Assembly (NCBI RefSeq): GCF_033547075.1
Contig: NZ_CP137891.1
Coordinates: forward strand, 372,001-436,000
Length of the DNA: 64,000 bases
Reading direction: 5' to 3'
DNA from: Flavobacterium ardleyense
GTDB lineage: Bacteria > Bacteroidota > Bacteroidia > Flavobacteriales > Flavobacteriaceae
A program made the translations under genes and the position numbers. The notes beneath the pieces are model-generated. The model did no database searches. It was not told the origin of the DNA and saw only the letters and a program-made list of their open reading frames with translations. Of the stretch, positions 5,362 through 54,352 are shown in pieces (the stretch's first letter is position 1; each line of letters starts with the position of its first letter).

Positions 5362-5450
5362 GGAGCTTCATCCTGCTATCCACTCCCAATCTTTTTGCCT
5401 CTAAAAAAGAGGCAAAAAGGATTTTCGCTACTATCAGGGCTAGGGCACTT
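5362..5450 (+). repeat. Family 2 dispersed repeat, copy a
   Basis: The element begins GGAGCT and ends GGCTAGGGCACTT. Its centre is CAATCT, then a perfect TTTTTGCCTC/GAGGCAAAAA hairpin, then AGGATTTTCGCTA. It is the simplest of the five family 2 copies in the window (others at 33262, 37323, 48589 and 52646). Confidence 0.7.
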
Positions 5451-5591
5451 GTGCTTAATTGAAATTTTGTGGTGAAATTTTAAGTTAAATCCGCTTGCCA
5501 CATTAGTCGAAGAATGTAAACAAAACCAAAGGCCTAAGCAAATTACAGTAATGAAGTTAATTTGTAACCCCCGACGATGCGCTCCGAAAAG

Positions 5592-5633
5592 CCCACCCCG
5601 CCCTTCGGGCACCCCTCCGAAAGGAGGGGAATG
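5592..5633 (+). repeat. GC-rich double-hairpin element
   Basis: Two adjacent hairpins, GCCCTTCGGGC and CCCCTCCGAAAGGAGGGG, are flanked by CCACC and ATG. The same 40-base element occurs reversed at 45802-45842, where it borders a 19-bp tandem repeat. Between 5451 and 5784 nothing else is recognisable except a short run of near-repeats of GATCATTTGGAT at about 5724-5775. Confidence 0.6.
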
Positions 5634-5783
5634 AATGCCGATTGGAATTTTTTATAGATTTAAAGACATTCTCACAATATCATCCTTTCAAGTCGTAGAA
5701 TCCAATTTTAATTTAGCCTTTTTTGATCATTTGGATTTTTTAGATCATTTGGATATCTTAGATTATTTCGATCTTACCGATTC

Positions 5784-5943
5784 CTCGCGCAAGGGATGGC
5801 AGTGGCATCCTTTGCTGCTTACATCAATATGAATTTTAAAGAAAATCGTGCTAGCAGCAAAGATATAACGGACAGCCCGGTGCCGAGCCTACGTGATTTT
5901 CTATGGTAGTAGAAATCGTTGTGGCGAGGCATGCGCCCAAAAA
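5784..5943 (-). repeat. Family 1 dispersed repeat, copy b
   Basis: This is an inverted copy of the family: GCGCAAGGGATGGCAGTGGC, ATCCTTTGCTGC, then AGCAAAGATAT, GGACAGCCCG and finally GCATGCGCCC. The stem arms are CTTTGCTGC and GCAGCAAAG. It fills the gap between the GC-rich hairpins and the UbiA gene. Confidence 0.7.
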
Positions 5944-5960
5944 ATAACGATACTTCTACC

Positions 5961-6887
5961 TTAAATACTGAGTTGTAGTAACATCTTCCGACCGTGGATT
6001 AAAACCGCGGGCTCAATTAGAACAATGCAGAAAACTCCCGCAACGACAAGGATTTTTAAGACATTATGAAGACGTAAATAATCTGCTTTTTCGGTAGCAT
6101 TCCACAGTTTTATAATCAGAAAAAGGAGCACGAAGATGCTGGAGTAAAAGTAAATGTCCATATAACCTATTTCGAAAACATCGATTAACAAGTAGACTGG
6201 AATGATGCTGCAAAGTGCTAAGACGGTAATTATTTCTTTGGATTTACGCTCGCCAAAAACTACTGGAACGGTTCGATAATTCGCCACAAAATCGCCAGAT
6301 AAATTCTCTAAATCCTTGACCATTTCGCGAATTAATAACAGCAAGTACAAAAAGGTAGCGTGGGCAAAAATTACTTGATAAAAGTTTTTATAGTAGAATA
6401 AAATCGCGAAAAATGGCAAAACTGCCATCATTGCTGCCATGAGATTTCCGATAAAGGTGAATTTTTTTATTTTGTGGGAATAAAACCAAATCAAGAAAAT
6501 ATAGCCTGAAAAAAATAAAGCTGCTCGCCAAGAAACAAGCAACGCCATAAAAAATACTATAAAATTTATTGAGAAGTAAACGTACAGCTTGGTTTTCTGA
6601 CTGACCAATCTGTCCAGCATCGACTTTCTAGGTCGGTTGATTAAATCCTTTTGTGAATCGTAAAAATTATTGATAATATAACCCGAAGCAATAGTTAACG
6701 AAGATGCAAAAACGATTATAAATAGTCGCCAATCCAATAAAATTTCGACTGCAGAAGTGTCTGGAGCTAAAATAAATATTGCCGAAAGATATTGGGCAAG
6801 GATGATAATTGGGATATTATAGCCGCGCACGACCGAAAACAAACTAACTATTTTCATTAAAAGAAGTTTGTTCCTTCTACTGACCAT
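5961..6887 (-). CDS. UbiA-family prenyltransferase
   Basis: This integral membrane enzyme would transfer an isoprenoid chain to an acceptor. The first Asp-rich motif NNFYDSQKDLINRP is near residues 73-86 and the second, KDLENLSGD, lies in the cytosolic loop near the middle; both bind the Mg-diphosphate of the prenyl donor. About eight hydrophobic segments are visible over 308 residues, the usual family size. Close relatives in Flavobacteriaceae are generally named geranylgeranylglycerol-phosphate geranylgeranyltransferase-like, but the acceptor is not readable here. It follows the GHMP kinase and mvaD on the same strand, consistent with using the product of that pathway. An internal ATG at 6857 is an alternative start. 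Confidence 0.85.
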   Translation of the reverse strand: MVSRRNKLLLMKIVSLFSVVRGYNIPIIILAQYLSAIFILAPDTSAVEILLDWRLFIIVFASSLTIASGYIINNFYDSQKDLINRPRKSMLDRLVSQKTKLYVYFSINFIVFFMALLVSWRAALFFSGYIFLIWFYSHKIKKFTFIGNLMAAMMAVLPFFAILFYYKNFYQVIFAHATFLYLLLLIREMVKDLENLSGDFVANYRTVPVVFGERKSKEIITVLALCSIIPVYLLIDVFEIGYMDIYFYSSIFVLLFLIIKLWNATEKADYLRLHNVLKILVVAGVFCIVLIEPAVLIHGRKMLLQLSI

Positions 6888-6946
6888 TGATGCGTATTTA
6901 CATAATTACTTTAAGAATTGACCGAGTTGAAGTTGAAAAAAAGTGC

Positions 6947-7876
6947 TTAAAACTGATAAACAACTTCTAGTTTATGATCTTTTAAGGATTCTCTTGCTTT
7001 GTCGATATTTTCAGTAAATCCTAAGATATAACCTCCACCTCCAGAGCCACAAAGTTTTAGATAATAATCATTACTATCAATTCCTTGCTGCCAAAGTCCG
7101 TGAAATTGCTCAGGAATCATTGGTTTAAAATTGTTGAGTACAATTTTGGACAATTGCTTTGTATTGGTAAAAAGAGACTTGATGTCGCCACCAAGAAAGT
7201 TTTCTACGCAAGCATCGGTGTATTTTACAAACTCATCTTTTACCATTTTACGGAAGCCTTTATCTTTGAGGTTTTCCATAAAAATATTGACCATCGGAGC
7301 AGTTTCGCCCACAATTCCCGAATCTAACAAAAACACTGCGCCTTTCCCGTCAAAACTTTGTGTAGGAATTCCAGTCGCTTCGATATTATCGTGCGAATTG
7401 ATAAGAATCGGAATGCTTAAATAACTATTTAGTGGATCAAGACCAGAACTTTTTCCGTGGAAAAAACTTTCCATTTGAGAAAATATGGTCTTTAGTTGCA
7501 ATAATTTTTCGCGCGTAAGATTTTCCAGAACAGTGATTTTTTTGTAAGCATATTTATCGTAGATCGCCGCCACTAATGCGCCACTACTACCTACACCGTA
7601 TCCTTGCGGAATACTTGAGTCAAAATACATTCCTTCGTCAAGATCGGTTTGCAAACTTTGAATATCAAATGTTACAATACTACTATCTATCTCTGCAAGG
7701 TAAGTAGCAAAACGACGTAAACTTTCATTTGATTTTTGTGCAACTGCCGAATCGTTTTCTTGAGTTTTTAAAGCACCTTTAAAGAAATTATAAGGAATTG
7801 AGAGACCTTTAGAATCTTTGATAATTCCATATTCTCCAAACAGTAAAATTTTCGAGTAAAATAAAGGTCCTTTCAT
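6947..7876 (-). CDS. GHMP kinase, mevalonate kinase-like
   Basis: This is a cytosolic ATP-dependent kinase of the GHMP superfamily, probably phosphorylating mevalonate or phosphomevalonate. The N-terminal SKILLFGEYGII is the first GHMP motif, SIPQGYGVGSSGALVAA is the glycine-rich phosphate loop, and LCGSGGGGYILGF is motif 3. The ATG at 7876 gives 309 residues. The frame stays open into the end of mvaD, but those upstream residues do not look like a kinase N terminus, and the chosen start leaves a 52-base gap. Location between mvaD and a prenyltransferase supports a role in the mevalonate pathway. Mevalonate and phosphomevalonate kinase activities cannot be told apart by eye. Confidence 0.85.
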   Translation of the reverse strand: MKGPLFYSKILLFGEYGIIKDSKGLSIPYNFFKGALKTQENDSAVAQKSNESLRRFATYLAEIDSSIVTFDIQSLQTDLDEGMYFDSSIPQGYGVGSSGALVAAIYDKYAYKKITVLENLTREKLLQLKTIFSQMESFFHGKSSGLDPLNSYLSIPILINSHDNIEATGIPTQSFDGKGAVFLLDSGIVGETAPMVNIFMENLKDKGFRKMVKDEFVKYTDACVENFLGGDIKSLFTNTKQLSKIVLNNFKPMIPEQFHGLWQQGIDSNDYYLKLCGSGGGGYILGFTENIDKARESLKDHKLEVVYQF

Positions 7877-7928
7877 ACTTCCGTATTTATTTTGTTGGGC
7901 TTTTGAAGCAGGAGTTAAATAGTAATTT

Positions 7929-9011
7929 CTAAGAAAGAAAGACGCTTCCACTTCCCACCTCATCACAAATATAATGTTCATTTTGGCAATAGCCAACTAA
8001 ATTTTTCTTAATAAATTCTAAGACTTCATCCTTAACCGACTCTGGATATAGCAAGTGCACATTTGCACCCGCATCTAGTGTGAAGCAAATTGGAGTTTTG
8101 GTCTCCGCTCTGTATTTCCAAATTGCATTAATTATCTCTAATGTATTAGGCTTCATCAAGATAAAATATGGATTGGAACTCATCATCATTGCGTGCAAAG
8201 TCAAGGCTTCGCTCTCAACTAACGCTATGAATTGCGAAAGATTTCCGTTTTTCAGAATGGTTTTTAGCGAGGCTAAGTTTTTGTGAGCTTGATCAAAACG
8301 TGCTGTTGCAAAAGGATGATCATTCATCAAATCATGGCCAATTGTGCTGCTCACTTGCTTCTCACCTTTATCAACTAAAAGAATTGTGTCCTGGTAATTT
8401 TTGAAGTTGTCGTGAAGTTTTTCTTCGAAGGAAATTCCGTACAAATCACTGCTTTTCGAGATTGATTTTGTTTCTCCCCAAACTACCACTTCGCCTTTTA
8501 TACTTCGGCAAGCAGATCCAGATCCTAATCTTGCAAGGAAAGAAGCTTTTTTATTGAAATAATCTTCAGTCATTTTTGGATTCAGCTCACGCTCCAATCG
8601 CATTAAGTTTACCGCCAAAGCGGCCATTCCCGAAGCTGAAGATGCGATTCCTGAACTGTGCGGAAAAGTATTTTCGGTATCAATAAAGAAGTGAAAATGT
8701 TTTAAAAAAGGTTGGTAGACAAAAATTCGCTCTAAAAATTGTTGGATTTTTGGTCTAAATGTTTGTTTTGGCTGTCCTTCAAAACGAAAGTCGAAAGAGA
8801 AATCATCTTGTGGCTCGATTGGTCTAAAACCTAATTTTGTAATTGTTTTACAATTGCTAAGCGTAAAACTCAAAGATGGATTTGCCGGGATTTGATTGTC
8901 TAGTTTTCCCCAGTATTTCACTAGAGCAATATTACTCGGCGCGCTAGATTCAAAATCTCCTTGAATAGCCAAGTTTTCTGGCATTGTAGCAACAAAATCA
9001 CGAATTTCCAT
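7929..9011 (-). CDS. mvaD: Diphosphomevalonate decarboxylase
   Basis: The enzyme converts mevalonate diphosphate to isopentenyl diphosphate with ATP, the last step of the mevalonate pathway. The N-terminal signature SNIALVKYWGK...NPSLSFTLS is the diagnostic substrate and ATP region of this family, HSSGIASSASGMAALA is the phosphate loop, and RLGSGSACRS and DAGANVHLLYP complete the fold. At 360 residues it has full length. It is the first gene of a minus-strand cluster continuing into the GHMP kinase and UbiA genes, and it has its own TAnnTTTG box 22 bases upstream. Confidence 0.93.
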   Translation of the reverse strand: MEIRDFVATMPENLAIQGDFESSAPSNIALVKYWGKLDNQIPANPSLSFTLSNCKTITKLGFRPIEPQDDFSFDFRFEGQPKQTFRPKIQQFLERIFVYQPFLKHFHFFIDTENTFPHSSGIASSASGMAALAVNLMRLERELNPKMTEDYFNKKASFLARLGSGSACRSIKGEVVVWGETKSISKSSDLYGISFEEKLHDNFKNYQDTILLVDKGEKQVSSTIGHDLMNDHPFATARFDQAHKNLASLKTILKNGNLSQFIALVESEALTLHAMMMSSNPYFILMKPNTLEIINAIWKYRAETKTPICFTLDAGANVHLLYPESVKDEVLEFIKKNLVGYCQNEHYICDEVGSGSVFLS

Positions 9012-9033
9012 TTCTTAAAATATAGGTTGGTTG

Positions 9034-9041
9034 CAAAGGTA
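9034..9041 (-). promoter_or_regulatory. -7 box for the mevalonate cluster
   Basis: The minus strand reads TACCTTTG, a full TAnnTTTG match 22 bases before the mvaD ATG. No convincing -33 TTG was placed. Confidence 0.55.
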
Positions 9042-9174
9042 ATCGTTTTTTGAGAATTGGCATATTGCGATTACTAAGCTAGTTCTAAAGCTGCCAAAAT
9101 CTATGAGATATTTACTGAAATAATGGGTTTCTAAAATATTCTAATTAAAGACCTACAATTGCATTGCTCCTTCC

Positions 9175-9182
9175 TAAATTTG
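9175..9182 (+). promoter_or_regulatory. -7 box for tspO
   Basis: TAAATTTG matches TAnnTTTG and lies 22 bases before the tspO ATG, the same spacing as for the divergent mvaD promoter. Confidence 0.5.
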
Positions 9183-9204
9183 CCACAGCATAAAAAAATC
9201 CAAA

Positions 9205-9681
9205 ATGAATAAGTATATAAAGATTGTTGTAATGATTGTGACCTGTCTTGCGGCAGCCTATTTCTGGAATCAGATTGCAGATTACGGGCTGCAAACTTGG
9301 TATGAAACAATTACTAAACCATCCTTTGCGCCGCCAAAAGAAATTTTCGCTCCCGTTTGGGGATTTTTCTTTGTACTCATTGGTCTTGGAGGCGGATTAT
9401 TTTATGCGGAAATTGAAAGAACTCCAGAGCCAGTGCGAAAAGGAATGCTATTTTTCTGGATTCAGTTGGCACTTGCACTTCTTTGGGCATATTTATTTTT
9501 TAGTCTAAAAAACCCCTTGCTTGCAACAATCGAAATCGCTTTGACATGGTTAATTGCTTATGAAACTTATATTCAATTTGGAAAAATTAAGAAATTTTCC
9601 GCGGTGTTATTTATTCCTTATTTGCTGTGGCTGGCTTTTGTTACCGCGCTTTCGGCAACAATTTGGTTTATCAATAGCTAA
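9205..9681 (+). CDS. tspO: TspO/MBR family membrane protein
   Basis: This five-helix membrane protein is homologous to the translocator (benzodiazepine receptor) family, which binds porphyrins and sterols and modulates tetrapyrrole and stress responses in bacteria. The 158-residue length, the WYETITKPSFAPPKEIFAPVWG segment after helix 1, and the Trp-rich helices (WAYLFFSLKNPLLA, WLIAYETYIQFGKI, PYLLWLAFVTALSATIW) are typical. It is read alone, divergent from mvaD and convergent with the YhiN-like flavoprotein gene, whose stop is two bases away. Its ligand cannot be deduced. Confidence 0.88.
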   Translation: MNKYIKIVVMIVTCLAAAYFWNQIADYGLQTWYETITKPSFAPPKEIFAPVWGFFFVLIGLGGGLFYAEIERTPEPVRKGMLFFWIQLALALLWAYLFFSLKNPLLATIEIALTWLIAYETYIQFGKIKKFSAVLFIPYLLWLAFVTALSATIWFINS

Positions 9682-9682
9682 A

Positions 9683-10894
9683 TTAAGCTAATGCATTTGC
9701 CGCGATAAATGCTGTTGTCCAAGCATTTTGGAAATTAAAACCGCCAGTAATTGCATCGATATTTAAGATTTCGCCCGCGAAGTAAAGATTTTCGTGTTTT
9801 TTGCTTTCCATCGTTTTGAAGTTGACTTCTTTCAGATTTACGCCACCAGCAGTTACAAATTCTTCTTTGAAAGTACTTTTTCCGTTGACTTGATATTCGC
9901 CAGAAGTCAATTCATTTAGCAAAGCTGTGGTTTGTTTTTTATTCAAATCTGCCCATTTACAATCTGCGGCAATTCCAGAAGCCTCGGTTAAACTATCCCA
10001 AAGTCGACCAGGAAAAGGAAATGGTGAATGAGAACGAATATTTTTCTTAGCGTTGCTAAGTTTTAAGCCCATGATTATTTTCTCTACCTCTTCGCGATCT
10101 TGACCTGCAAGCCAATTGACGTGAATTTTGAATTGATAATTTTTCTCGGCAAGAATTCTCGCGCCCCAAGCCGATAGTTTCAAAATCGCCGGTCCGCTCA
10201 TTCCCCAATGTGTTATAAGCAACGGTCCTGAAGATGACAATTTGGTTCCCAAAACCTTAACTTCCGCTTCTGAAGCTATTCCAGGAAGTTCTCTAATTCG
10301 AGAATCTTTGATATTAAATGTAAATAATGAGGGTACTGCGGGTACAACTGTGTGATCAAATTCTTCCAACATTTGCCATAGTTTCGGATTGCTTCCTGCA
10401 GCTATCACCAGCTTTTCGCAAATAAATTGATCGTTTTTTGTTTCAACTTTCCACAAATCGTCTTTCTTGAATAAGGATTGAACGCTTTGTGCCGTGAGGA
10501 CTTGAATATTGTATTTGGCTGTCGCCGAAATAAAGCAGTCGATTATCGTTTGAGATGAATCGGTAGTTGGAAACATTCTGCCATCAGCTTCGGTTTTGAG
10601 AGCGACTCCTTGATTTTTGAACCATTCGATAGTGTCGTTTGCACCGAAAGTATGAAAAGGTCCACGCAGTTCTTTTTCGCCACGAGGATAGAATTTCACC
10701 AAGTCATTTGCTATAAAGCAAGAATGCGTGACATTGCAACGGCCACCACCAGAAATTCGGACTTTTTCTAAGACCGAACTTCCTCTCTCGAGAATGGCGA
10801 TTTTTAATTTTGGATTTTTCTGAGCTGCATTTATAGCGCAAAAAAATCCTGCTGCGCCACCTCCTACTATTATAACATCAAATCTGTGCATCAT
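9683..10894 (-). CDS. NAD(P)/FAD-dependent oxidoreductase, HI0933/YhiN family
   Basis: This cytosolic flavoprotein is of unknown substrate. The N-terminal DVIIVGGGAAGFFCAINAA is an FAD-binding Rossmann loop, followed by LEKVRISGGGRCNVTHS, the hallmark of the HI0933/YhiN group. TGGFNFQNAWTTAFIAANAL at the C terminus closes the FAD site. Length is 403 residues, as expected. The first two codons are both ATG (10894 or 10891); the start overlaps the stop of the upstream phosphodiesterase gene by about four bases, which suggests translational coupling. Confidence 0.85.
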   Translation of the reverse strand: MMHRFDVIIVGGGAAGFFCAINAAQKNPKLKIAILERGSSVLEKVRISGGGRCNVTHSCFIANDLVKFYPRGEKELRGPFHTFGANDTIEWFKNQGVALKTEADGRMFPTTDSSQTIIDCFISATAKYNIQVLTAQSVQSLFKKDDLWKVETKNDQFICEKLVIAAGSNPKLWQMLEEFDHTVVPAVPSLFTFNIKDSRIRELPGIASEAEVKVLGTKLSSSGPLLITHWGMSGPAILKLSAWGARILAEKNYQFKIHVNWLAGQDREEVEKIIMGLKLSNAKKNIRSHSPFPFPGRLWDSLTEASGIAADCKWADLNKKQTTALLNELTSGEYQVNGKSTFKEEFVTAGGVNLKEVNFKTMESKKHENLYFAGEILNIDAITGGFNFQNAWTTAFIAANALA

Positions 10895-11577: not shown

Positions 11578-11586
11578 TGACACAAT

Positions 11587-15120: not shown

Positions 15121-15597
15121 AATAATATTGAGCTAAAATCAACTTCATCTCAGATTTATATTCAGATTGTTTTCGCGGTTAAAGGAAGGCAAAGTTTAAT
15201 TCTTACTAAATGGGAAGAAGATCTGTACAAGTATATCACAGGCATAGTTCAAAATAAAGATCAGAAGCTATTAGCAATTAATGGTATGCCTGATCATATC
15301 CATATCTTAATTGGAATGAAGCCTAGTTGCACAGTATCTGATTTAGTTCGTGAAATAAAAAAATCGTCAAATGATTTTATAAATGATAATGGATTTTGCT
15401 CAAGAAAATTTGAATGGCAGGAAGGATATGGTGCTTTTTCTTATAGTCATTCAGCTTTAGATAATATAATTGGTTATATAAATAATCAAAAAGAGCATCA
15501 TAAAGTGAAGTCATTTAAAAAAGAGTATCATTTAATATTAAACAAGTTTGAGATCGAATTTGATGAGAAGTATTTATTCGAGTGGATTGAAGATTGA
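15121..15597 (+). pseudogene. IS200-like Y1 transposase without a start codon
   Basis: The frame is open from 15121 and begins near a typical family start (STSSQIYIQIVFAVKGRQSLI). It continues through the HUH motif MPDHIHILIGMKP, a conserved SDLVREIKKSSNDFIN region and FEWQEGYGAFSYS with the catalytic Tyr region and INNQKEHHKVKSFKKEY. About 158 codons match the usual length of this single-strand DNA transposase family, which includes the REP-associated RAYT enzymes. No ATG, GTG or TTG lies in frame before Met 15286, which would remove the first 55 residues. So the copy is probably dead or starts at an unusual codon such as ATT 15127. Confidence 0.75.
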
Positions 15598-15629
15598 TTA
15601 AAATATTCGTCATTGGGGACATGCCGGAA

Positions 15630-15706
15630 ATGTGCGACCACCTACGGGGTCGAAAAACCTATCCGAAACTCCTTTTCTATAAACATATGATCCCTACGGG
15701 ATCAAG
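15630..15706 (+). repeat. CGACC/GATCCC palindrome repeat, copy 1
   Basis: The unit begins ATGTGCGACCACCTACGGGG and ends in a GATCCCTACGGGATC palindrome, with CTATAAACATATGATC between them. Copies 2 (15966-16043) and 3 (23852-23927) match closely. It lies 33 bases after the transposase frame. A decayed relative containing GACCCCGTAGGTGGTA lies at about 15800-15900. Confidence 0.7.
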
Positions 15707-15965
15707 AACGATGATGTAGTATCATATTAGGAATTTTGCTGTCATTTTATTTATTTTAAAAAATTTGATAGAGATATTTAGATTTTATCTTATCAAAGCT
15801 CTAGGTGGAAATGATGTATTTCCGTTGCAACTGACCCCATCTGTGTCATATATTTATAGAGCTATGCGTCGAAATTGGCGTTGACCCCGTAGGTGGTAGT
15901 ATGTTTATTTTCAGCAAGTCGGCAATGCAAAACAATTATTTTTAAGAATTTATGATGATACCGAA

Positions 15966-16043
15966 AATGTGCGACCATCTACGGGGTCGAAAAAACCTAT
16001 CCGAAATTCCTTGTCTATAAACATATGATCCCTACGGGATCAA
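15966..16043 (+). repeat. CGACC/GATCCC palindrome repeat, copy 2
   Basis: This is a near-identical direct copy of 15630-15706. Together the two bracket about 260 bases containing only degenerate pieces of the same palindromes. Confidence 0.7.
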
Positions 16044-16146
16044 ACAAACATTTTTAAAAATTTATTTCGGAAGAACTTAGCAACATAATAATAAACAGTA
16101 TTTCTAAAATCTTTTCTCTCCGACACTTATTGGCGGTATGCTGTCT

Positions 16147-16476: not shown

Positions 16477-16633
16477 GTGTTAGGGATGGGAGCGGCATCC
16501 TTTACTGCATTTTCGAAAATTTGAAACTTGAAAACTAATCGTTGTGGCAGTAAAGATATAGTGGACAGCCCGGCGGCGGCTTAACCAAAATTTGAATTTT
16601 AGCAGAGATGTTCTAGCCGACGCAACACCCAAA
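16477..16633 (-). repeat. Family 1 dispersed repeat, copy c
   Basis: The element runs from TGTTAGGGATGGGAGCGGC through ATCCTTTACTGC, GCAGTAAAGATATAG and GGACAGCCCGGCGGCGGC to GCCGACGCAACACCC. The stem arms are CTTTACTGC and GCAGTAAAG, whereas other copies have CTTTGCTGC and GCAGCAAAG, so both sides have changed together. It is almost identical to copy d at 24141, and the two lie as direct repeats on either side of the thi operon. Confidence 0.8.
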
Positions 16634-16650: not shown

Positions 16651-17490
16651 CTAATTATTGAAGGTGCTCGCAGTCATTTCCTGAGGGTCAAAAAAATGAT
16701 TCATAGGTCCATTTCCTTTACCAATAGAAATGGCTTTCGCCGAATTTATTGCCTTAAAAACATATTTATGCGCTGCTGCAATTGCTTCAAAAAGAGGCAG
16801 TCCTTGGGCTAAAAAACTAGCAATCGCAGACGAAAGTGTACATCCTGTACCGCGAGTATTTGGGGAATCGACTCTCTTTTGATCTATCAAATGACTTTTA
16901 TTGTTGGCATCTAAATATAATGACGGAATGATGTTGGAACGGAGATGACCTCCCTTTACCAAAACAGCTTTCGCACCCATATCGCTGATTTTCTGAGCTG
17001 CGAGCAGCATGTCATCTGCCGAAATAACTGGAAAACCAACTAAATAAGCAGCTTCGTCTAGATTAGGAGTAAGCAAACTGATGAGGGGGAAAAGTTCTTT
17101 TTGTAAAGTATCTTTTGCATCATTTTGAATCAGGACAGTACCGCTACTTGAAATCATTATTGGATCTAAAATGACTGGAATATTTGGAAATAATTTTAAA
17201 ATTTTAGCGATGCCCAAAATATTTTCGGCAGAATTTACCATTCCAATTTTAATCGCATCGGGTACAATATCCTCCAAAAGTAGGTGTAATTGCTCCGTGA
17301 CAATATGGGCGGGGATTTCGAAAATTGATTTTACGGTCTTAGTATTTTGCAAAGGCAAAGCAGTGAGCACCGAGGTAGCATAACACCCCAAGGCCGAAAT
17401 AGTCTTAATATCTGCCTGAATTCCCGCCCCACCACTGGCATCGAAACCGGCGATGGTTAATACAACGGGATATTTTCTTTGAGTTTTCAT
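16651..17490 (-). CDS. thiD: Hydroxymethylpyrimidine/phosphomethylpyrimidine kinase
   Basis: ThiD phosphorylates hydroxymethylpyrimidine twice to give HMP diphosphate, the pyrimidine half of thiamine phosphate. Visible signatures are TIAGFDASGGAGIQADIKT (substrate loop), ILDPIMISSSG, LLTPNLDEA, KGGHL and DSPNTRGTGCTLSSAIAS, the anion-hole motif of the ribokinase family with its catalytic Asp-like position replaced by the GTGCT loop common in ThiD. The 279-residue length is normal. It is the last gene of the thiamine operon, three bases after thiF. Confidence 0.94.
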   Translation of the reverse strand: MKTQRKYPVVLTIAGFDASGGAGIQADIKTISALGCYATSVLTALPLQNTKTVKSIFEIPAHIVTEQLHLLLEDIVPDAIKIGMVNSAENILGIAKILKLFPNIPVILDPIMISSSGTVLIQNDAKDTLQKELFPLISLLTPNLDEAAYLVGFPVISADDMLLAAQKISDMGAKAVLVKGGHLRSNIIPSLYLDANNKSHLIDQKRVDSPNTRGTGCTLSSAIASFLAQGLPLFEAIAAAHKYVFKAINSAKAISIGKGNGPMNHFFDPQEMTASTFNN

Positions 17491-23428: not shown

Positions 23429-23467
23429 CTACAGAAGTGCACACGAATGCGCATAACGAGTCATCTT

Positions 23468-23547
23468 ACTTTTCCCTACGGCAGTATGAACTGCATCAGG
23501 TTCAGAGGGTAAAATCTCAGCCTACATTTTGTAGACACCCCTAAAGT
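23468..23547 (-). promoter_or_regulatory. TPP (THI-box) riboswitch
   Basis: The minus strand has all conserved parts: AGGGGTG, CTGAGA, ACCC, TGAACCTGAT, GTTCATACTGCCGTAGGGA, enclosed by an ACTTT/AAAGT P1 stem. It precedes thiS and the whole thi operon, so thiamine pyrophosphate should repress the operon. Confidence 0.96.
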
Positions 23548-23552
23548 CGGGA

Positions 23553-23560: not shown

Positions 23561-23851
23561 AAGGAATATAATTGGTAAAAACAAACTCAATTTTTGGATT
23601 TTATGAAATTTCGCTAATTGAAAGCTTAGAAAGTCGGGTATTTAGTGCTGTAAAAAAGACTTTTTGAAACAAAATCCTTTGGCTTTTTACTTTAATAATT
23701 TTTGGATTAAAAATAGGTTTGACTAAGATTATTTCATGTGAAATATATGCAACATTATTTTCTATAAGCATTTGATGAATGCGAGATTATAAATAAAAGT
23801 GGTATTTAAATATTTGACAACTTGATAATTGGGGATTTATGATAATCGTAA

Positions 23852-23927
23852 AGGTGCGACCACCTACGGGGTCGTAGAAGATTTACGCAAATTATCTTCT
23901 ATAAACATGTGATCCCGCTGGGTTCAA
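23852..23927 (+). repeat. CGACC/GATCCC palindrome repeat, copy 3
   Basis: It starts AGGTGCGACCACCTACGGGG and ends GATCCCGCTGGGTTCAAG, with CTATAAACATGTGATC between. It is a more diverged copy of the two repeats at 15.6-16.0 kb. From 23561 to 24141 no gene is credible. Confidence 0.6.
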
Positions 23928-24140
23928 GAATTACTGTGCTACTTTAATATTCGTCAAGTTAATATTTGGAGGAATTCTAAACATTTGGAAAGATCATCTG
24001 CCTATTCTAAAAAAATCTACTGAGATGATTTTTATCAAATTATATGATGCTTGAGAAATCTCATCCTCTTTATTGGACATTAAGTCAAAATAAATTTAAT
24101 TCTGAATGTTACCTTTTACAATCTACAGCGAAGTCATTTT

Positions 24141-24295
24141 GTGTTAGGGATGGGAGCGGCATCCTTTACTGCCCAACAAAAATTTGAATTTTGAAAACTA
24201 ATCGTTGTGGCAGTAAAGATATAGTGGACAGCCCGGCGGCGGCTTAACGTATATTTGAATTTTAGCAGGGAATTTCTAGCCGACGCAACACCCAA
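24141..24295 (-). repeat. Family 1 dispersed repeat, copy d
   Basis: This copy is near-identical to copy c (16477-16633) and in the same orientation. It carries the same CTTTACTGC/GCAGTAAAG stem and GGACAGCCCGGCGGCGGC segment and ends GCCGACGCAACACCC. Confidence 0.8.
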
Positions 24296-33261: not shown

Positions 33262-33414
33262 GGAGCTAAATCCCGCTTTCTACTACAATCTGCAAGCACA
33301 AATTCCTTGTGCACAATGCGCGGCAAGGAGCTTCCGTTGGTCGCTCTTGCTGCGCAGTGCACAATGTCATTTGCCACTTGCAGGATTTTCGCGACAATCG
33401 GGGCTAGGGCACTT
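33262..33414 (+). repeat. Family 2 dispersed repeat, copy b
   Basis: The element runs from GGAGCT to GGGCTAGGGCACTT. Between CAATCT and AGGATTTTCGC lies a long arm pair, CTGCAAG...CTTGCAG, enclosing nested pieces (CCTTGTGCACAATGC, GCAGTGCACAATG). It is almost the mirror of copy c at 37323-37473, which is on the other strand. Confidence 0.8.
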
Positions 33415-37322: not shown

Positions 37323-37473
37323 GAGCCCTAGCCCTGATTGTCGCGGAAATCCTGCAAGTGCCAAATGACATTGTGCACTGTGCGGGAAGAGCGACCAACG
37401 GAAGCTCCTTGCCGTGCATTGTGCACAAGGAATTTGCGCTTGCAGATTGTAGTAGAAAGCAGGATAAAGCTCC
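37323..37473 (-). repeat. Family 2 dispersed repeat, copy c
   Basis: This inverted near-identical copy of 33262-33414 runs from GGGCTAGGGCTC-like ends to GGAGCT with the same CTGCAAG...CTTGCAG arms. It lies directly after the glycosyltransferase stop codon and reaches close to the end of the lipoprotein gene. Confidence 0.8.
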
Positions 37474-45295: not shown

Positions 45296-45299
45296 AGGG

Positions 45300-45487: not shown

Positions 45488-45630
45488 TTTGGGCGAGACC
45501 GGCGCCAGAACTTTTCCGGAAACATTTAAAATTTTATGTGGCGCCGGTCGGGCTGTCCGTTCCCAATCTTTCTTGTAGCTTTCGCTGCGCAAAGCCACAA
45601 GAAAGGATTTTCTCTACCATCCCTCTCGCA
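45488..45630 (+). repeat. Family 1 dispersed repeat, copy e
   Basis: It starts TTGGGCGAGACCGGCGCC and ends CCATCCCTCTCGCA. The inner GGCGCC pair flanks the GTCGGGCTGTCC segment, and the stem is TTTCTTGTAGCTTT/AAAGCCACAAGAAA between CAATC and GGATTTT, so the hairpin differs in sequence from that of copies a-d. The remainder of 45308-45800 holds nothing recognisable. Confidence 0.75.
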
Positions 45631-45801
45631 GCAGATATGTCAAGATAGGTTAAATCAAATTGACTGTAGAATTGAAAATAGATGGCAAATTAAGAAACAA
45701 GAATAATATCTTAGTATTCATAATACTTTTAAATATAGTCTAGATAAAAGTGCTAAAATTACCAAATTCAACACTTACTCCCCAAATCATTTGTGCGCAA
45801 A

Positions 45802-46070
45802 CCATTCCCCTCCAACGGAGGGGTGCCCGAAGGGCGGGGTGGATGACCCAAGACGAGATGGATGACCCAAGGCGAGATGGATGACCCAAGACGAGATGGA
45901 TGACCCAAGACGAGATGGATGACCCAAGGCGAGATGGATGACCCAAGACGAGATGGATGACCCAAGGCGAGATGGATGACCCAAGGCGGGGTGGATGCCC
46001 GAAGGCGGGGTGGATGACCGAAGACGAGGTGGATGCCCGAAGGCGAGGTGGATGGCCCAAGGCGGGGTGG
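45802..46070. repeat. 19-bp tandem repeat next to the GC-rich hairpins
   Basis: About 12 head-to-tail copies of a 19-base unit, close to GATGACCCAAGACGAGATG, with AAGAC/AAGGC and GAGATG/GGGGTG variants, follow the reversed copy of the 5592-5633 element (45802-45842). Open frames across it in three frames give the artefactual peptide repeat GHPSRLGSSIS and are not real genes. Copies nearer 46000 are closer to the GC-rich element (GCCCGAAGGCGGGGTG), so the array probably grew from it. Confidence 0.85.
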
Positions 46071-46199
46071 GTGCGCACGACAAGCAATGCTCGCATATTA
46101 AAAAATCATCGCAATTAAAAATAGAAGCCATAACTAATTGCATTCCTTCGCACTCATAACCTTAGTTCGCAAAAAGACCATTCCCCTCACTTTACCCCA

Positions 46200-46708: not shown

Positions 46709-46806
46709 AAATATTTTTTCAACTTTCCTAACTAAATCATGAATTATTATTATTCAGCATAGTAGTTAATAATTGTAATTTTATTTATTCTTTCAAATTT
46801 CTGTAA

Positions 46807-47292: not shown

Positions 47293-47314
47293 AATCTAAA
47301 TCGTATTAAGAAGA

Positions 47315-47322
47315 CAAAAATA
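47315..47322 (-). promoter_or_regulatory. -7 box of the DUF6252-like gene
   Basis: The minus strand reads TATTTTTG, 22 bases before the ATG at 47292. Confidence 0.45.
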
Positions 47323-47436
47323 CTATTTTACAGCAAAAAAGCTATAATAAGCAAAACTATTTAAATCGAAAAATTGTATATAATCGCACTACGAAAAATA
47401 TTTAAAGATAAAAATAATAAAATTGAAATAAAAAAG

Positions 47437-47444
47437 TATCTTTG
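47437..47444 (+). promoter_or_regulatory. -7 box of rpsP-rimM
   Basis: TATCTTTG is a full TAnnTTTG match, 49 bases before the rpsP ATG. Confidence 0.6.
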
Positions 47445-47493
47445 CACCCTTAATTAACAGAGGTCGAGTACCTCAAAATTTAATCAAAAGATT

Positions 47494-48033: not shown

Positions 48034-48047
48034 TTATACTGGCGGTT

Positions 48048-48572: not shown

Positions 48573-48588
48573 ATAGAGCATTTTTTTT

Positions 48589-48712
48589 GGAGCTAATCGC
48601 GCTATCCGCTACAATCTTGCTTGTATGCTTGTGCTCCGCAAGCACACAAACAAGGATTTCCACTACACCCGAGCGTAGCGAACGGACCGTAGGTAATCCG
48701 GCTAGGGCACTT
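48589..48712 (+). repeat. Family 2 dispersed repeat, copy d
   Basis: The element runs from GGAGCT to GGCTAGGGCACTT. The centre is CAATCT, then a TTGCTTGTATGCTTG/CAAGCACACAAACAA stem, then AGGATTT. A module ACCCGAGCGTAGCGAAC lies at 48667-48683. It fills the gap between rimM and trmN6. Confidence 0.75.
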
Positions 48713-48740
48713 TTGCTATCTTCAACAATCATTTTTAAAT

Positions 48741-49454: not shown

Positions 49455-49547
49455 TCTTTCAAAATTCATAAATCCATATTTTCATCCGCCATCTCTTACA
49501 GAGATAGAATTTCTATTTCAACGAGATGATGATTCTTAACGCGATTT

Positions 49548-49700
49548 TGCGCAAGGGATGGGAGCGGCATCCTTTGCTGCCAAAAAAATAGTAAATTTTT
49601 AAACCATTATTTTTGGCAGCAAAGATATAGAGGACAGCCCGCCCCGAGCCACCGAAAACTTCTAATTTAAGATACAATTTCTGGCGAGGATGCGCCCAAA
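49548..49700 (-). repeat. Family 1 dispersed repeat, copy f
   Basis: It starts GCGCAAGGGATGGGAGCGGC, has ATCCTTTGCTGCC and GGCAGCAAAGATATAG arms, and ends GAGGATGCGCCC after GGACAGCCCGCCC. It lies between the ends of the convergent trmN6 and membrane-protein genes, a position typical of the family. Confidence 0.75.
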
Positions 49701-49710
49701 AAAGTAGGAT

Positions 49711-50850
49711 TTAAAGGTTAATTCTGCTTGAACTCTGCAAACTTATTATGTGGAAAAGCAGGAATGAAACGCATAAAATAAAATAGGAAATGTCTGCTTT
49801 ACTATTGTAAAACGCGTCGTACAAGCTATGTTGCATTGACATCCAAACGAAATGTAATGCGATGGTTATGAACAAAATTATGGCGCTATAAAAGTATACA
49901 TCTTGACGATTTTTGACTATAAAATAGCTTAGAAAACTCAAAATAATGCAAGCAAAACTGAATTCGAAAGGCATTAAATAGGACGACTGAATGATGAATG
50001 GATTCATTTTTAGGAAATCGTCGAAGTGCCCGATGACAAAAGGCAGGAAAGTTGCCGCGAAAGTTAGCACTGCTATTATTCCGATTATTATGGTGTTTTT
50101 TATGCTAATATCTCGATTTTTGAGTGCAAATAAAAACACAACCACATACGGAATTGCGTAGACGTTACGTGTGGAAAGCAGCAATCCGATGATAATTCCG
50201 TTCCATAATAAGTTCTTTTTTTCGATGGTTTTGAAGAAATAAACGATCGAAATTAAGATGAGTGTACTATTGAAAAAGATGTTGCTTCGGCCCACAATTT
50301 CCCATAGCAAAAATGGGGAAGTCGCGATAATAATAAAGTAAGCAGTTTGTGTTGGCAAAGGTTTATTGAGAACTTTTAGCAACAGAATAAATGCCAAAAG
50401 TCCGATAATCGACAGATACCCCAATTCTCCAAGAAGGTAAAAAGGCAAGGCAACGACATAATAAAACGGCATTGGTCCGGGATAATTGTTCATGTGCGAG
50501 AGTGCAAAATAAACATATTCGCCAGCGAAGTAATTATCCCAAAACGATGTAATCACGCTCCATCTGTCGACATTTAAGGTTTCGACTGGAACTTTTTGGA
50601 AGATAAAATAAGATGTGATAAATAAGACAATAAATCCTATAATGTTGACAAATTTTAGCCGTTTTCCAAAGCTTTTAAGTTTGTCTTGATATCTGAAGAT
50701 CAGAAAATAAAAGCTTGTAATTAACACCGAAATAGGTACTGCGAAATCCGTAACTCTACTGAGATATTTGATCGAGAAAATCAGATTGATAAACAAAAAT
50801 AACGAAAGTGAAATGTTGCTTTTGATTTTGTCTGCGCCTGAAATTTTCAT
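49711..50850 (-). CDS. Polytopic membrane protein, probable glycan-related
   Basis: The 379-residue protein has about ten hydrophobic helices from residue 12 to the end and one hydrophilic loop, NVDRWSVITSFWDNYFAGEYVYFALSHMNNYPGPMPFYY, reminiscent of the first external loop of membrane glycosyltransferases of the C superfamily. It follows the family 2 glycosyltransferase gene after two bases, so both probably act in one glycan pathway. No family is securely recognised. Confidence 0.6.
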   Translation of the reverse strand: MKISGADKIKSNISLSLFLFINLIFSIKYLSRVTDFAVPISVLITSFYFLIFRYQDKLKSFGKRLKFVNIIGFIVLFITSYFIFQKVPVETLNVDRWSVITSFWDNYFAGEYVYFALSHMNNYPGPMPFYYVVALPFYLLGELGYLSIIGLLAFILLLKVLNKPLPTQTAYFIIIATSPFLLWEIVGRSNIFFNSTLILISIVYFFKTIEKKNLLWNGIIIGLLLSTRNVYAIPYVVVFLFALKNRDISIKNTIIIGIIAVLTFAATFLPFVIGHFDDFLKMNPFIIQSSYLMPFEFSFACIILSFLSYFIVKNRQDVYFYSAIILFITIALHFVWMSMQHSLYDAFYNSKADISYFILCVSFLLFHIISLQSSSRINL

Positions 50851-50852
50851 TC

Positions 50853-51589
50853 TTAGAATAACTTTGATTTGATTATTCCAGTTTTTGCAAGGAAATATTT
50901 AATTGAGACTTTCATCACTCCCAAACCATATTGCACACTTCGCTTAAAATTTATCGATGAAGCGTCATCAAAATATTTTGTCGGGCAGGTAATTTCGGCG
51001 ATTTCGTATCCTTTAAAAAAAATTTGAGCTAGAAATTGATTGTCAAATATAAAATCGTCAGAGTTTGAATTGTAATTGATACTTTCCAAAACTTCTCTGT
51101 TGTAAGCTCTGTAACCTGTGTGATATTCGGATAATTTCTGATTCATCATCACGTTCTGGAAGAATGTCAAGAAGCGATTTGCGATGTATTTATACCGCGG
51201 CATTCCGCCTCTAATAACCCCCCCCCTAAAATCCTAGATCCAATCACTACAGGATACAAATCACTTGCAATTAGATAGCTCATAGAATGAATCAACTTGG
51301 GGGTGTATTGGTAATCTGGATGCAGCATAATCACGATGTCGGCACCTAATTCCAAGGCTTTGTTGTAGCAGGTTTTTTGATTTCCGCCGTAACCTAGATT
51401 ATTTTCGTGTTTGATAATGTGTTTGATTCCAATATGTCTGCCGACATTGATGGTGTTGTCGGGACTATTATCATCGACTAGAATCACATCGTCTACGATT
51501 TCGAAAGGTATTTCGTTGTAAGTCTGTACTAATGTTTTTTCGGCTTTATAAGCAGGCAAAACCACAATAATCTTTTTATTGTCAATCAT
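50853..51589 (-). pseudogene. Family 2 glycosyltransferase, off-frame at a nine-G tract
   Basis: The first part (51589 down) reads KIIVVLPAYKAEKTLVQTYNEIP, VILVDDNSPDNT, NLGYGGNQKTCYNKALELGADIVIMLHPDYQYTPK and VVIGSRILGGG, as in dolichyl-phosphate-sugar synthase-like enzymes. The second part (from about 51203) continues RYKYIANRFLTFFQNVMMNQKLSEYHTGYRAYNREVLE. The two are in different frames; the break is at nine Gs on the minus strand (Cs at 51218-51226), where ten would give a continuous GGGVIRGGMPRYKY. It could be a phase-variable OFF state, a true pseudogene or a sequencing slip. Confidence 0.82.
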
Positions 51590-51966
51590 TATATTGGAAA
51601 AATGGATTTTATAATTAGTTCTTGGAATAAGGTTTTACGGCAAAATATAAAGTACGCAATAACGTGAATTAAAGGTTGGGATGAAAATGTTTTGTTAAAT
51701 TTGTTGAGTGGGATAAATTTGAGAAAAGATAAAGTGAAAGTCCTAGTAGTATAGTTTGAAATGCTGCTGTATTAACATAATAAGATCATTGATAGTAAGT
51801 AATACAACTCAAAAGGAGTAAATTGAATTTATTCCCATTGCACATGAATAATATAATATTAATTTTAGATAATCAGAATAAGATGTTGAAATGAGAAGGT
51901 TTGTAATTATAGATGATAATGGACAACAAAGTTGTATAAGCAAACAATCAATTTAAATAAATAAAA
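51590..51966. other. Gene-free stretch
   Basis: Nothing recognisable was found in this AT-rich interval: no coding frame, palindrome or promoter pair of note. It separates the glycosyltransferase unit from the toxin-antitoxin pair. Confidence 0.5.
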
Positions 51967-52269
51967 CTAAATTCTTTCCCTCCATTGATTTGGATTCCTA
52001 ACCGTGTGAAAGATTCCAAGAATAGTAATGACTTTTTTACTTTCATTTAGGTGATAGTATATTCCGTAAGGAAATACATCGGTCAATGCCATTCGCACGC
52101 TTTTATATTTTTTCTGAAACAACAAAGGGTTTTGCGCAATAAATGCGGTTGTCTTTTTCACCTCTGAAACGAATCGCTTTTCCAGTCCAATCAACTTACT
52201 TTTGTAAAAATGCTTTATTTCATAAATATCATTTTTAACTTCCTTATGATTTACTAGATCGAAACTCAT
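51967..52269 (-). CDS. RelE/ParE-family toxin
   Basis: This 100-residue toxin of a type II toxin-antitoxin pair has the usual ParE-like features: a helical N terminus (EVKNDIYEIKHFYKSKLIGLEKRFVSEVKKTTAFIAQNP), a central strand with FQKKYKSVRMALTDVFPYGIYYHLN, and the ending VITILGIFHTVRNPNQWRER. Its start overlaps the antitoxin stop by four bases. Whether it attacks gyrase (ParE) or mRNA (RelE) is not decidable by eye. Confidence 0.85.
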   Translation of the reverse strand: MSFDLVNHKEVKNDIYEIKHFYKSKLIGLEKRFVSEVKKTTAFIAQNPLLFQKKYKSVRMALTDVFPYGIYYHLNESKKVITILGIFHTVRNPNQWRERI

Positions 52270-52493
52270 ATTTCAGCATCTAATGCTTTATAAAACTCTT
52301 CAATAGCCTCAATTTTGTCAGGATTATTTATGTCTGTCAATCTCTCATCCAAAAGATCTTTTTGCCACTGAGGCAGATCATCTTCTTCTTTTTCAATATT
52401 TGGATACATACTTTTTAGACGTTCCCACTGCTCTATTGGAATAAATACGCCTGTTGGTCTTCCGTTGTCATCTTTAATAATTTGTGTCTTCAT
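52266..52493 (-). CDS. Antitoxin of the RelE/ParE pair
   Basis: The 75-residue product begins MKTQIIKDDNGRPTGVFIPIEQWERLKSMYPNIE, a Phd-like or addiction-module component with a DNA-binding N terminus, and ends in an acidic helix (NNPDKIEAIEEFYKALDAEI) that would cover the toxin. It lies immediately before the toxin gene with a four-base overlap. Family identity is inferred mostly from position. Confidence 0.75.
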   Translation of the reverse strand: MKTQIIKDDNGRPTGVFIPIEQWERLKSMYPNIEKEEDDLPQWQKDLLDERLTDINNPDKIEAIEEFYKALDAEI

Positions 52494-52645
52494 AATTATA
52501 TATTTGAGGAAAACATCACCTATTTTCTTGAATCTAAAGTAAATATACGATTTTGAAATTTATAGAAAAAACAAAACATTCTTAATTCAATCTCCGCAAC
52601 TACTTCAATTTGATCTAACTTCTCACCATCTTCTTCAACACCACT

Positions 52646-52830
52646 CCCCTAGCCGTGATAGTAGCGTACCCGAGCGAAGCGAACTGGCGAAGCAAATCCC
52701 GCAGGCAGCAGCGCTATTTTTTCCTAGCGAAAAAGAGCGACCTTAGTCCCGATAGCAATCGGGATCCTTTTTCGCTACTGGAAAAAAAGTGCTGTCACGA
52801 GGAATTGCAGAGAATAGCGCGAATAGCTCC
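52646..52830 (-). repeat. Family 2 dispersed repeat, copy e
   Basis: The reversed element runs from CCCTAGCC to AGCTCC. It holds the ACCCGAGCGAAGCGAAC module (52668-52684), a TCCCGATAGCAATCGGGA hairpin and paired TTTTTCCTAGCGAAAAAG/CTTTTTCGCTACTGGAAAA arms, so it is the most elaborate copy. It lies between the toxin-antitoxin pair and the acyl-CoA dehydrogenase gene. Confidence 0.7.
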
Positions 52831-52859
52831 TGAAAAATCTTATAATTACTATTTCGAAT

Positions 52860-52890
52860 TTGATTGCAATCAATAGAATACGTACTTTTG
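52860..52890 (+). promoter_or_regulatory. Promoter of the acyl-CoA dehydrogenase gene
   Basis: TTG (52860-52862) and TACTTTTG (52883-52890) are 20 bases apart, and the ATG follows 21 bases later. Confidence 0.6.
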
Positions 52891-52911
52891 CACCCATTAA
52901 TATACCAACCT

Positions 52912-54090
52912 ATGAGACCAGATTTATTTCAAGCTCCGGATTATTACAATCTTGATGAATTATTGACCGAAGAACATAAATTAGTGCGTGATGCAGCCCG
53001 CGAATGGGTAAAGCGTGAAGTTTCGCCAATTATTGAGGATTATGCTCAAAAAGCTGAATTTCCTAAACAAATTATCAAAGGTCTTGCAGATATTGGTGCT
53101 TTTGGCCCATATATTCCGGAAGAATATGGTGGTGCAGGATTAGATCAAATTTCGTACGGACTTATTATGCAGGAAATAGAGCGTGGAGATTCTGGCGTTA
53201 GATCGACTGCTTCTGTGCAATCTTCTCTTGTGATGTACCCAATTTGGAAATACGGAAACGAAGAGCAGCGTATGAAATATCTTCCTAAACTTGCTTCTGG
53301 CGAATTTATAGGATGTTTTGGACTTACCGAGCCTGATCATGGATCTGATCCAGGCAGTATGGTGACAAATTTTAAAGATATGGGCGACCATTATCTTTTG
53401 AATGGTGCCAAGATGTGGATTTCGAATGCTCCATTTGCGGATATTGCCGTTGTTTGGGCAAAGGACGAAAGTGGTCGTATTCACGGTCTTGTTGTAGAGC
53501 GCGGAATGGAAGGATTTTCGACTCCAGAAACGCACAACAAATGGTCGCTTCGTGCATCTGCTACGGGCGAGCTTATTTTTGATAATGTAAAAGTTCCAAA
53601 AGAGAATTTACTTCCTAATAAATCGGGTCTTGGCGCGCCACTTGGCTGTCTTGATTCTGCACGTTACGGTATTGCTTGGGGCGCTATTGGTGCTGCCATG
53701 GACTGCTATGACACGGCTTTGCGTTATGCAAAAGAGCGTGTACAGTTTGGCAAACCGATTGCTGGCACTCAATTGCAGCAGAAAAAACTTGCTGAAATGA
53801 TTACCGAAATTACAAAAGCGCAGTTACTTACCTGGCGTTTAGGAGTTTTGCGCAATGAAGGAAAAGCTACTACAGCTCAGATTTCGATGGCAAAACGTAA
53901 CAATGTGGATATGGCGATTAATATTGCTAGAGAAGCGAGACAAATCCTAGGTGGAATGGGAATTACAGGCGAATATTCGATTATGCGTCACATGATGAAC
54001 CTTGAATCAGTAATCACATACGAAGGTACTCACGACATTCACTTGCTTATTACAGGAATGGATATCACTGGAATTCCAGCTTTTAAATAG
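52912..54090 (+). CDS. Acyl-CoA dehydrogenase, glutaryl-CoA dehydrogenase-like
   Basis: This flavoenzyme would oxidise an acyl-CoA; its closest family features are those of glutaryl-CoA dehydrogenase. Segments are the start DLFQAPDYYNLDELLTEEHKLVRDAAREWVKREVSPII, the FAD/substrate site CFGLTEPDHGSDPGSM, FDNVKVPKENLLP, ARYGIAWGAIGAAMDCYDTALRYAKERVQFGKPI and the catalytic Glu in VITYEGTHDIHLLITG. The ATG at 52912 gives 392 residues and is preferred to the longer frame because it follows a well-placed promoter. Confidence 0.92.
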   Translation: MRPDLFQAPDYYNLDELLTEEHKLVRDAAREWVKREVSPIIEDYAQKAEFPKQIIKGLADIGAFGPYIPEEYGGAGLDQISYGLIMQEIERGDSGVRSTASVQSSLVMYPIWKYGNEEQRMKYLPKLASGEFIGCFGLTEPDHGSDPGSMVTNFKDMGDHYLLNGAKMWISNAPFADIAVVWAKDESGRIHGLVVERGMEGFSTPETHNKWSLRASATGELIFDNVKVPKENLLPNKSGLGAPLGCLDSARYGIAWGAIGAAMDCYDTALRYAKERVQFGKPIAGTQLQQKKLAEMITEITKAQLLTWRLGVLRNEGKATTAQISMAKRNNVDMAINIAREARQILGGMGITGEYSIMRHMMNLESVITYEGTHDIHLLITGMDITGIPAFK

Positions 54091-54111
54091 TATTTTTATT
54101 ACAATATATTT

Positions 54112-54146
54112 TACAGAAAGCTTCCTGAAAAGGAGGCTTTTTTGTT
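54112..54146 (+). terminator. Terminator of the acyl-CoA dehydrogenase gene
   Basis: AAGCTTCCT and AGGAGGCTT form a near-perfect stem around GAAA and are followed by Ts. Confidence 0.75.
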
Positions 54147-54182
54147 TTTAAGAAATTGGGCGTTTCTGCTTGATGTTTTTTA

Positions 54183-54352
54183 TTTGGGCGAGACCTTTCG
54201 CCAGAACGATTTGTGCAAAAAGTCATGTTGAATGTGGCTCAGGTCGGGCTATTCGTTCCCAATCTTTCTTGTAGCTTTTGCTCCGCAAAGCCACAAGAAA
54301 GGATTCGCTTCGCCTGTTCGCTTTGCTCGGGTCCACTGCTATCCCTCTCGCA
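54183..54352 (+). repeat. Family 1 dispersed repeat, copy g
   Basis: It begins TTTGGGCGAGACC, has GGTCGGGCTATTCG, a TTTCTTGTAGCTTTT/AAAGCCACAAGAAA stem as in copy e, and ends ATCCCTCTCGCA. It also holds a GTTCGCTTTGCTCGGGT module at 54316-54332, the reverse complement of that in family 2 copies d and e. Confidence 0.7.

Follow-up and report, generated by a model that had tools for sequence, protein, structure and literature searches.

Flavo-1 Repeats of a Flavobacterium ardleyense Genome: A Selected Folded Base, Hairpin Heads Common to Two Kinds of Base, and a Possible Origin as Non-autonomous Mobile DNA

The Repeats of the Window Belong to Flavo-1

A stretch of 64,000 nucleotides (nt) of the Flavobacterium ardleyense genome, the whole of which is called the window here (positions 372001-436000 of contig C1, the one contig of a 3.19 Mb genome), carries twelve dispersed repeats, each of which encloses a hairpin. 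An earlier note, made from the letters of the window, had described them as two families with one design and without a name. A covariance model built from 28 copies of the same genome, four of them in the window (model R1), returned 12 matches in window tiles at E <= 0.1, identical to the twelve positions listed in that note and with none besides. The fixed frame was likewise recovered, as ATCT...AGGAT on one strand and as GGMATCC...GATAYAG or GATTGGGAG on the other, and the arms of the enclosed hairpin differ between copies yet stay paired as had been described. However, the repeats do have a name, since they match the Rfam family RF01705, Flavo-1 RNA (Weinberg et al. 2010; PMC2864571), with E-values as low as 1.2e-13. 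In a gathering-level scan 8 of the 12 copies reached the gathering score of 42 bits; a permissive scan gave 10 matches, two of them below this score, and missed the copies listed at 52646 and 54183. The twelve repeats are thus one catalogued family with differing outer ends, so that the shared design holds while the division into two separate families does not. A review places Flavo-1 among the most abundant bacterial small RNA (sRNA) families and gives no function for it (PMC9029176).

Members of what had been called family 1 differ in the stem that closes the element. The stem GCGAG/CTCGC is found in the copies at 84..261 (minus strand, 52.7 bits with RF01705), 45491..45629 (minus, 50.3 bits) and 54186..54351 (minus), the last of which has a TTCGCTTTGCTCGGGTC module in its 5' internal loop and is matched by R1 (33.3 bits) and not by RF01705. 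The stem GCGCA/TGCGC occurs at 5787..5938 (plus, 47.1 bits) and 49549..49697 (plus, 45.6 bits), and GTGTT/AACAC at 16477..16630 (plus, 38.8 bits, below the gathering score) and 24141..24293 (plus, 43.3 bits), two copies that are 89% alike over 176 nt. To family 2 belong a short-class copy of 81 nt at 5362..5442 (minus, 71.2 bits) and a copy at 48589..48704 (minus, 36.7 bits, again below the gathering score), the base of which contains, as read by eye, an extra CCGTTCGCTACGCTCGGG-type module. Two further copies that had been assigned to family 2, at 33262 and 37323, instead form a third, long class of 145 nt with the conserved tip GAGCGACCAACGGAAGCTC (33262..33406, minus, 45.1 bits; 37329..37473, plus, 50.0 bits). 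The copy at 52650..52830 (plus), listed earlier at 52646, is probably an altered member of this long class: RF01705 does not match it, R1 matches its 3' half only (52740-52828, 23.2 bits, E 0.0047), and a module in the 5' internal loop and a changed tip were read by eye. In all, the window copies span 81-181 nt.

Anatomy and Classes

Read on the Flavo-1 strand, short-class copies of family 2 have the form TAGCC-NN-GAT...GGMATCC-hairpin-GATAYAG...AGC-NN-G...GCTCC, with an A-rich run of some 9 nt after it, while family 1 has a second hairpin and a closing stem added. The closing stem, which is not part of the 76-position Rfam model, is of seven types in the own genome (GCGAG/CTCGC, GCGTG/CACGC, GCGCA/TGCGC, GCGCG/CGCGC, GTGTT/AACAC, GCGTT/AACGC and GCGCC/GGCGC). 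A closing-stem pattern applied to 77 copies (56 from the own genome and 21 of relatives taken as family 1) fitted 44 of them (24 and 20, respectively), the other 33 being mostly family 2 or long class and some family 1. All five positions pair in 38 of the 44 parsed copies, a small part of which could be due to chance because, of the candidate end motifs, the one with the best score served as the 3' end; some of the six imperfect stems resemble mis-parsed ends. The 56 own-genome copies are the R1 matches at E <= 0.1 in the first 800 kb, from which about 220 per genome are extrapolated. This count is a lower bound, as 3 of 15 long-class tips found by pattern fall outside R1 matches. Fifteen of the 56 belong to the long class, with match lengths of 144-148 nt in all of them and a tip of the form GAGCGACC..AGCTC, mostly GAGCGACCAACGGAAGCTC, in 12. 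A regular-expression search for a base without a head gave two matches, both within long-class copies.

Copies of all three classes have, as seen by eye, modules of the CCCGAGCGAAGCGAACTGGCGAAGCAAAT type at or close to the 5' internal loop (C1 ~36099 and ~267609; window 48589, 52650 and 54186), and such a module may represent a further exchangeable block. Two other repeats of the window (CTTGTCATTTCGACG...; 54517-54670 and 54743-54896), which are 97% identical, both contain a TTCGCTTYGCTCGGGTC module that is also present inside the Flavo-1 copy at 54186-54351.

The Fold of One Strand Is under Selection

When 56 matches are aligned, 94.5% of cells are paired, compared with 65.4% after shuffling and at most 56.5% after sliding by one to three columns, and 211 cells show changes on both sides relative to a shuffled mean of 64.5. 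Since this alignment was fitted to the structure it favours pairing; an alignment of 28 copies made with MAFFT contains the same outer pairs, three of which have 15, 12 and 13 two-sided changes and zero broken pairs. The test for covariation that the earlier note had proposed thus yields an excess of two-sided changes in the presence of shuffling and sliding controls. Furthermore, the two strands are not equivalent, as the Flavo-1 strand has 46 G.T cells versus 7 A.C cells, and 22 versus 0 in the two base helices alone. The fold of one strand is therefore under selection in the base helices and the closing stem, and because a double-stranded cruciform should favour neither strand, the selected form would be single-stranded, either RNA or single-stranded DNA. 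The base helices covary independently of the heads, by which we mean the hairpins mounted on the base, and the conserved base helices of RF01705 are present. The earlier suggestion that paired changes reflect selection on structure consequently holds for the base helices and the closing stem, while it does not hold in the same way for the distal arms: both arms move together as one head (see below), and their pairing is therefore no independent evidence of base-by-base selection. The note itself had named as contrary to its view arms that match only because copies are recent duplicates with unrelated inserts, and the distal arms come close to this case.

Close Relatives Differ in the Presence of Copies in One Intergenic Region

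Eighty orthologous named loci, those most like the window's largest searched protein, all from Flavobacterium or other Flavobacteriaceae, contained 38 matches. Two of these (L091:1 and L080:21378), truncated where their locus ends, did not enter the comparisons of junctions and heads. For one intergenic region 43 of these loci gave an alignment, and 9 of the 43 hold the element. On the tree of a neighbouring gene this distribution requires seven changes of state, at least six of which are forced by supported branches. Shuffled labels require 8.4 changes on average, with 57 of 500 shufflings as low as the observed seven, and presence of the element hence hardly follows the tree. Sister loci differ from one another, with L143 filled and L103 empty, and L108 filled and L120 empty, while L085, the sister of the filled L128, carries another repeat in that place. 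The junction is uninterrupted in L113 and L129, both of which lie outside the seven-row group (support 87/87). At one junction near-exact empty forms are found in L120, L113 and L129; in L103 about a dozen additional bases are missing, indicating that not every loss is exact. The filled forms at one resolved junction have defined ends and no clear target duplication, though one of 2 nt is possible. Insertion polymorphism, which the earlier note had proposed to map, is thus found as presence or absence of copies in one and the same region of close relatives, as expected of mobile DNA.

In several relatives (e.g., L136, L142 and L148) the same intergenic region holds a different palindromic repeat (CACCATATAAGTGATATAAG...CTTATATAACTTATATGG).

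Copy Number and Placement in Relation to RNA-based Explanations

The own genome has at least 100 matches to RF01705, 94 of them above the cut-off, among the best 150 of 952 candidates that were scored. Flavo-1 was found in 26 of 40 genomes. The same genus, represented by 25 genomes with the own one among them, accounts for 23 of these, and the 15 other genomes account for 3; since the best 89 candidates were scored per genome, high counts are minima. The same-genus genomes G018 and G020 have no match and G024 has one. The 56 copies of the first 800 kb are evenly oriented (28 plus, 28 minus), and 45 of them overlap no open reading frame (ORF) of a simple ORF caller by more than 20 nt, the remaining 11 overlapping short ORFs or the end of a longer ORF with an unsure start. 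They lie in tandem, divergent and convergent regions in the numbers 38, 9 and 9, roughly in proportion to the total length of these regions, and of the 38 between tandem genes 26 run against the genes and 12 with them (p ~0.03). Among the best 40 of 163 copy pairs there are 38 in which similarity sets in no more than about 46 nt from the match start and ceases at most 70 nt beyond the match end.

These data bear on the view that Flavo-1 is a structured small RNA gene present in very many copies, in line with its Rfam type ('Gene; sRNA'). The strand-specific excess of G.T cells fits an RNA, and the A-rich run after GCTCC in family 2 is perhaps part of a transcript. In addition, a transcriptome study of F. 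psychrophilum reports several 5' transcribed regions that coincide with Flavo-1 matches; the same text states, however, that the matches seemed to be indistinctly sense or antisense and that many lay outside transcribed regions (PMC9723704), so that these published RNA data may on balance favour DNA over RNA. Together with the 56 copies of the first 800 kb, which take both orientations and oppose the flanking tandem genes more often than they follow them, and with the near or complete absence of copies from three genomes of the same genus, this makes a small RNA gene unlikely in our view, although it deserves to be taken seriously. We are distinctly more doubtful of cis-acting elements at the 3' or 5' ends of mRNAs, such as terminators or stabilisers, that are kept for this role. 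The mostly intergenic placement and the mild orientation bias would suit them, but the distribution over tandem, divergent and convergent regions is roughly what region length predicts, the element is gained and lost within one region, and on the folded strand the hairpin is followed by an A-rich run and not by a T-run.

Hairpin Heads Are Shared between Different Bases

At the junction described above L143 and L128 carry one head, whereas L108 carries a wholly different head on closely similar bases. The L108 head was searched in ten named genomes and gave 43 matches (two of them partial) in nine of the ten; all of the 30 matches that were read by eye lie inside a Flavo-1 base, and in 6 of the 9 genomes the head occurs in both family 1 and family 2 bases. 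The comparison of heads parsed 26 of the 30, the bases of the unparsed L201, L211, L212 and L220 being read by eye. In G138, G140 and G142 a head of 55-56 nt is 100% identical between a family 1 and a family 2 base, and in the G140 pair an extra T and flanking variants are common to both copies, with divergence beginning just outside AGCGGT and TTTAGC. A head of about 55 nt is thus shared as a block, and sometimes identically, between two kinds of base within one genome. The apparent head swap between L121 and L099/L106 was not used as main evidence, since the flank that these loci share is in part sequence of the element.

A Non-autonomous Folded Element as the Favored Explanation

Taken together, we consider it somewhat probable that these repeats are a high-copy, non-autonomous, folded intergenic DNA element, the Flavo-1 of Rfam, in which a constant base bears a hairpin head that can be exchanged. 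Copies would spread as single-stranded DNA recognised through the fold of the base, in a manner like that of REPINs, which are built from repetitive extragenic palindromic (REP) sequences. The heads may be replaced by short-homology gene conversion or by template switching from one copy to another, with limits set by the conserved sequences around AGCGG(C/T)ATC and ATATAGC, and only self-complementary heads would persist, as the base has to close on a hairpin. A related proposal is that of a two-part element in which the constant folded base is a docking site and self-complementary heads are swapped genome-wide by a dedicated single-strand recombination activity; no description of a hairpin cassette exchange system of this kind was found in a limited literature search. 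We judge the docking-site proposal less likely, and on the whole improbable, the more so as likeness of heads does not depend on their being in one genome: in different bases their mean likeness is 0.930 within a genome (14 pairs) and 0.928 between genomes (155 pairs), with a maximum of 1.000 in both.

Several points weigh against the non-autonomous element with exchangeable heads. Heads show no greater likeness within genomes, which speaks against a recent date of exchange. Exchange is visible in relatives and not in the window's own genome, where, in the quarter examined, the best match of heads across bases was 79%, short and simple, and was not counted. Only one head was studied in depth for this case, and, except at the L108/L143/L128 site, a constant head on a base that had itself changed would give the same picture. 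Likewise, gain and loss are not separable for every change of state on the tree, and own-genome copies are at most about 92% alike among the best 40 of 163 pairs, so that no recent activity is visible there. Lagging-strand transposition often gives a strand bias, while no replication-strand bias was detected in the first 800 kb or in the two genome halves (Rfam matches plus/minus 22/37 in the first and 19/22 in the second; dnaA lies at base 515 and the terminus was assumed to be opposite). A pattern search for composite copies, with genes between the halves, in 800 kb and in the 80 loci of relatives gave none. Finally, of the candidate mobilising enzymes tried over 40 genomes (Y1_Tnp, RVT_1, IS110 and Y2_Tnp), none is common to all Flavo-1 genomes.

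The last of these points concerns in particular the explanation that Flavo-1 represents REPs or REPINs and that a resident transposase, either a RAYT or an IS200-type Y1 enzyme, moves them. The style of life is alike, with folded, intergenic repeats in many copies and near-clean empty sites, and Y1_Tnp is matched in 23 of the 40 genomes as well as in the window. However, 5 of the 26 Flavo-1 genomes have no Y1_Tnp match (G004, with at least 88 Flavo-1 matches, G011, G012, G016 and G025), inspection by eye revealed neither a GTAG nor a CGTC tag, and at the window's Y1 locus, the only one inspected, the gene adjoins a different palindrome, the nearest Flavo-1 copy starting at 16477. We therefore regard movement by such transposases as quite unlikely. 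As to a SINE-like (short interspersed nuclear element) retro-element, in which a folded, A-tailed RNA is reverse transcribed into new sites, the A-rich run 3' of family 2 and the selection for structure on one strand are what one would expect, but reverse transcriptase (PF00078) has no match in 9 of the 26 Flavo-1 genomes, the own one-contig genome included, which leaves this explanation with very little credence. IS110 was matched in 5 of the 40 genomes, and Y2_Tnp in the own genome only, with none in the 39 relatives.

These IS91-type Y2 matches number ten in the own genome, and nine of them cluster within 40 kb (C1:2241964-2282134), five with equal score. The hairpin nuclease SbcD was rejected as a driver of head change: the own genome has it above the cut-off, but of the 22 same-genus genomes that remain when G018, G020 and G024 are left aside just 3 do. 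These latter three, with 0, 0 and 1 Flavo-1 matches, all have SbcD above the cut-off, in contrast to the 3 of 22; Flavo-1 copy number did not differ significantly between genomes with and without SbcD (p 0.13).

The repeats share with RF01705 the base sequence, the internal loops and the hairpin. Rfam, however, models one hairpin of 76 nt and types it as sRNA, and the family described here includes, in family 1, a closing stem and a second hairpin, as well as a fixed-tip long class, presence/absence polymorphism and exchangeable heads. Like REPINs (PMC3116915), Flavo-1 consists of intergenic hairpin units with conserved ends, a less conserved spacer, paired changes and perhaps excision; it differs in that no link to a RAYT was found and in that its heads are common to two base kinds. 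The GTAG and CGTC superfamilies of REPs are also short, folded, intergenic repeats, and the CGTC type is likewise without a known transposase, but Flavo-1 is longer, has internal loops and a closing stem, and shows no tag by eye (PMC3733652); the REP comparison also drew on the RepRanger publication (PMC12306157). As regards a miniature inverted-repeat transposable element of a DDE transposon, the closing stem of family 1 forms inverted ends of the element, and the one resolved junction shows no clear target duplication, though it may have one of 2 nt. Integron attC sites form an imperfect hairpin with a conserved base, a variable apical part and a strand-specific fold, and in this resemble Flavo-1. 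However, as judged by eye, Flavo-1 has no gene cassettes between copies, and its ends, TAGCC...GCTCC or GCGNN...CCAAA, are unlike attC boxes. In the open-licence literature searched we found no description of the closing stem, the fixed-tip long class, the strand-specific fold, the presence/absence polymorphism or heads shared between bases, nor of Flavo-1 as mobile DNA or with exchanged heads.

If Flavo-1 is mobile DNA, many annotated 'sRNA genes' of Flavobacteria would be mis-typed, and an enzyme that moves Flavo-1-like elements would be a new or unrecognised player. Moreover, if hairpins are exchanged between bases, apparent covariation of distal stems can arise in the absence of base-by-base selection, which calls for caution with RNA families that are built from repeats.

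Other Features of the Window

A RAYT-like Y1 transposase gene (PF01797) adjoins a palindromic repeat, CTACGGGGTCG ... ATCCCTACGGGATC, of which there are three copies (family D8; window 15145-16046 and 23847-23930), and gene and repeat are probably a resident REP system distinct from Flavo-1. A tandem array with a period of 19 nt and 13 registers occupies 45778-46119. A TPP (thiamine pyrophosphate) riboswitch at 23456-23552 on the minus strand lies upstream of minus-strand ORFs from 23139 downwards, which include phosphomethylpyrimidine kinase (16651-17490).

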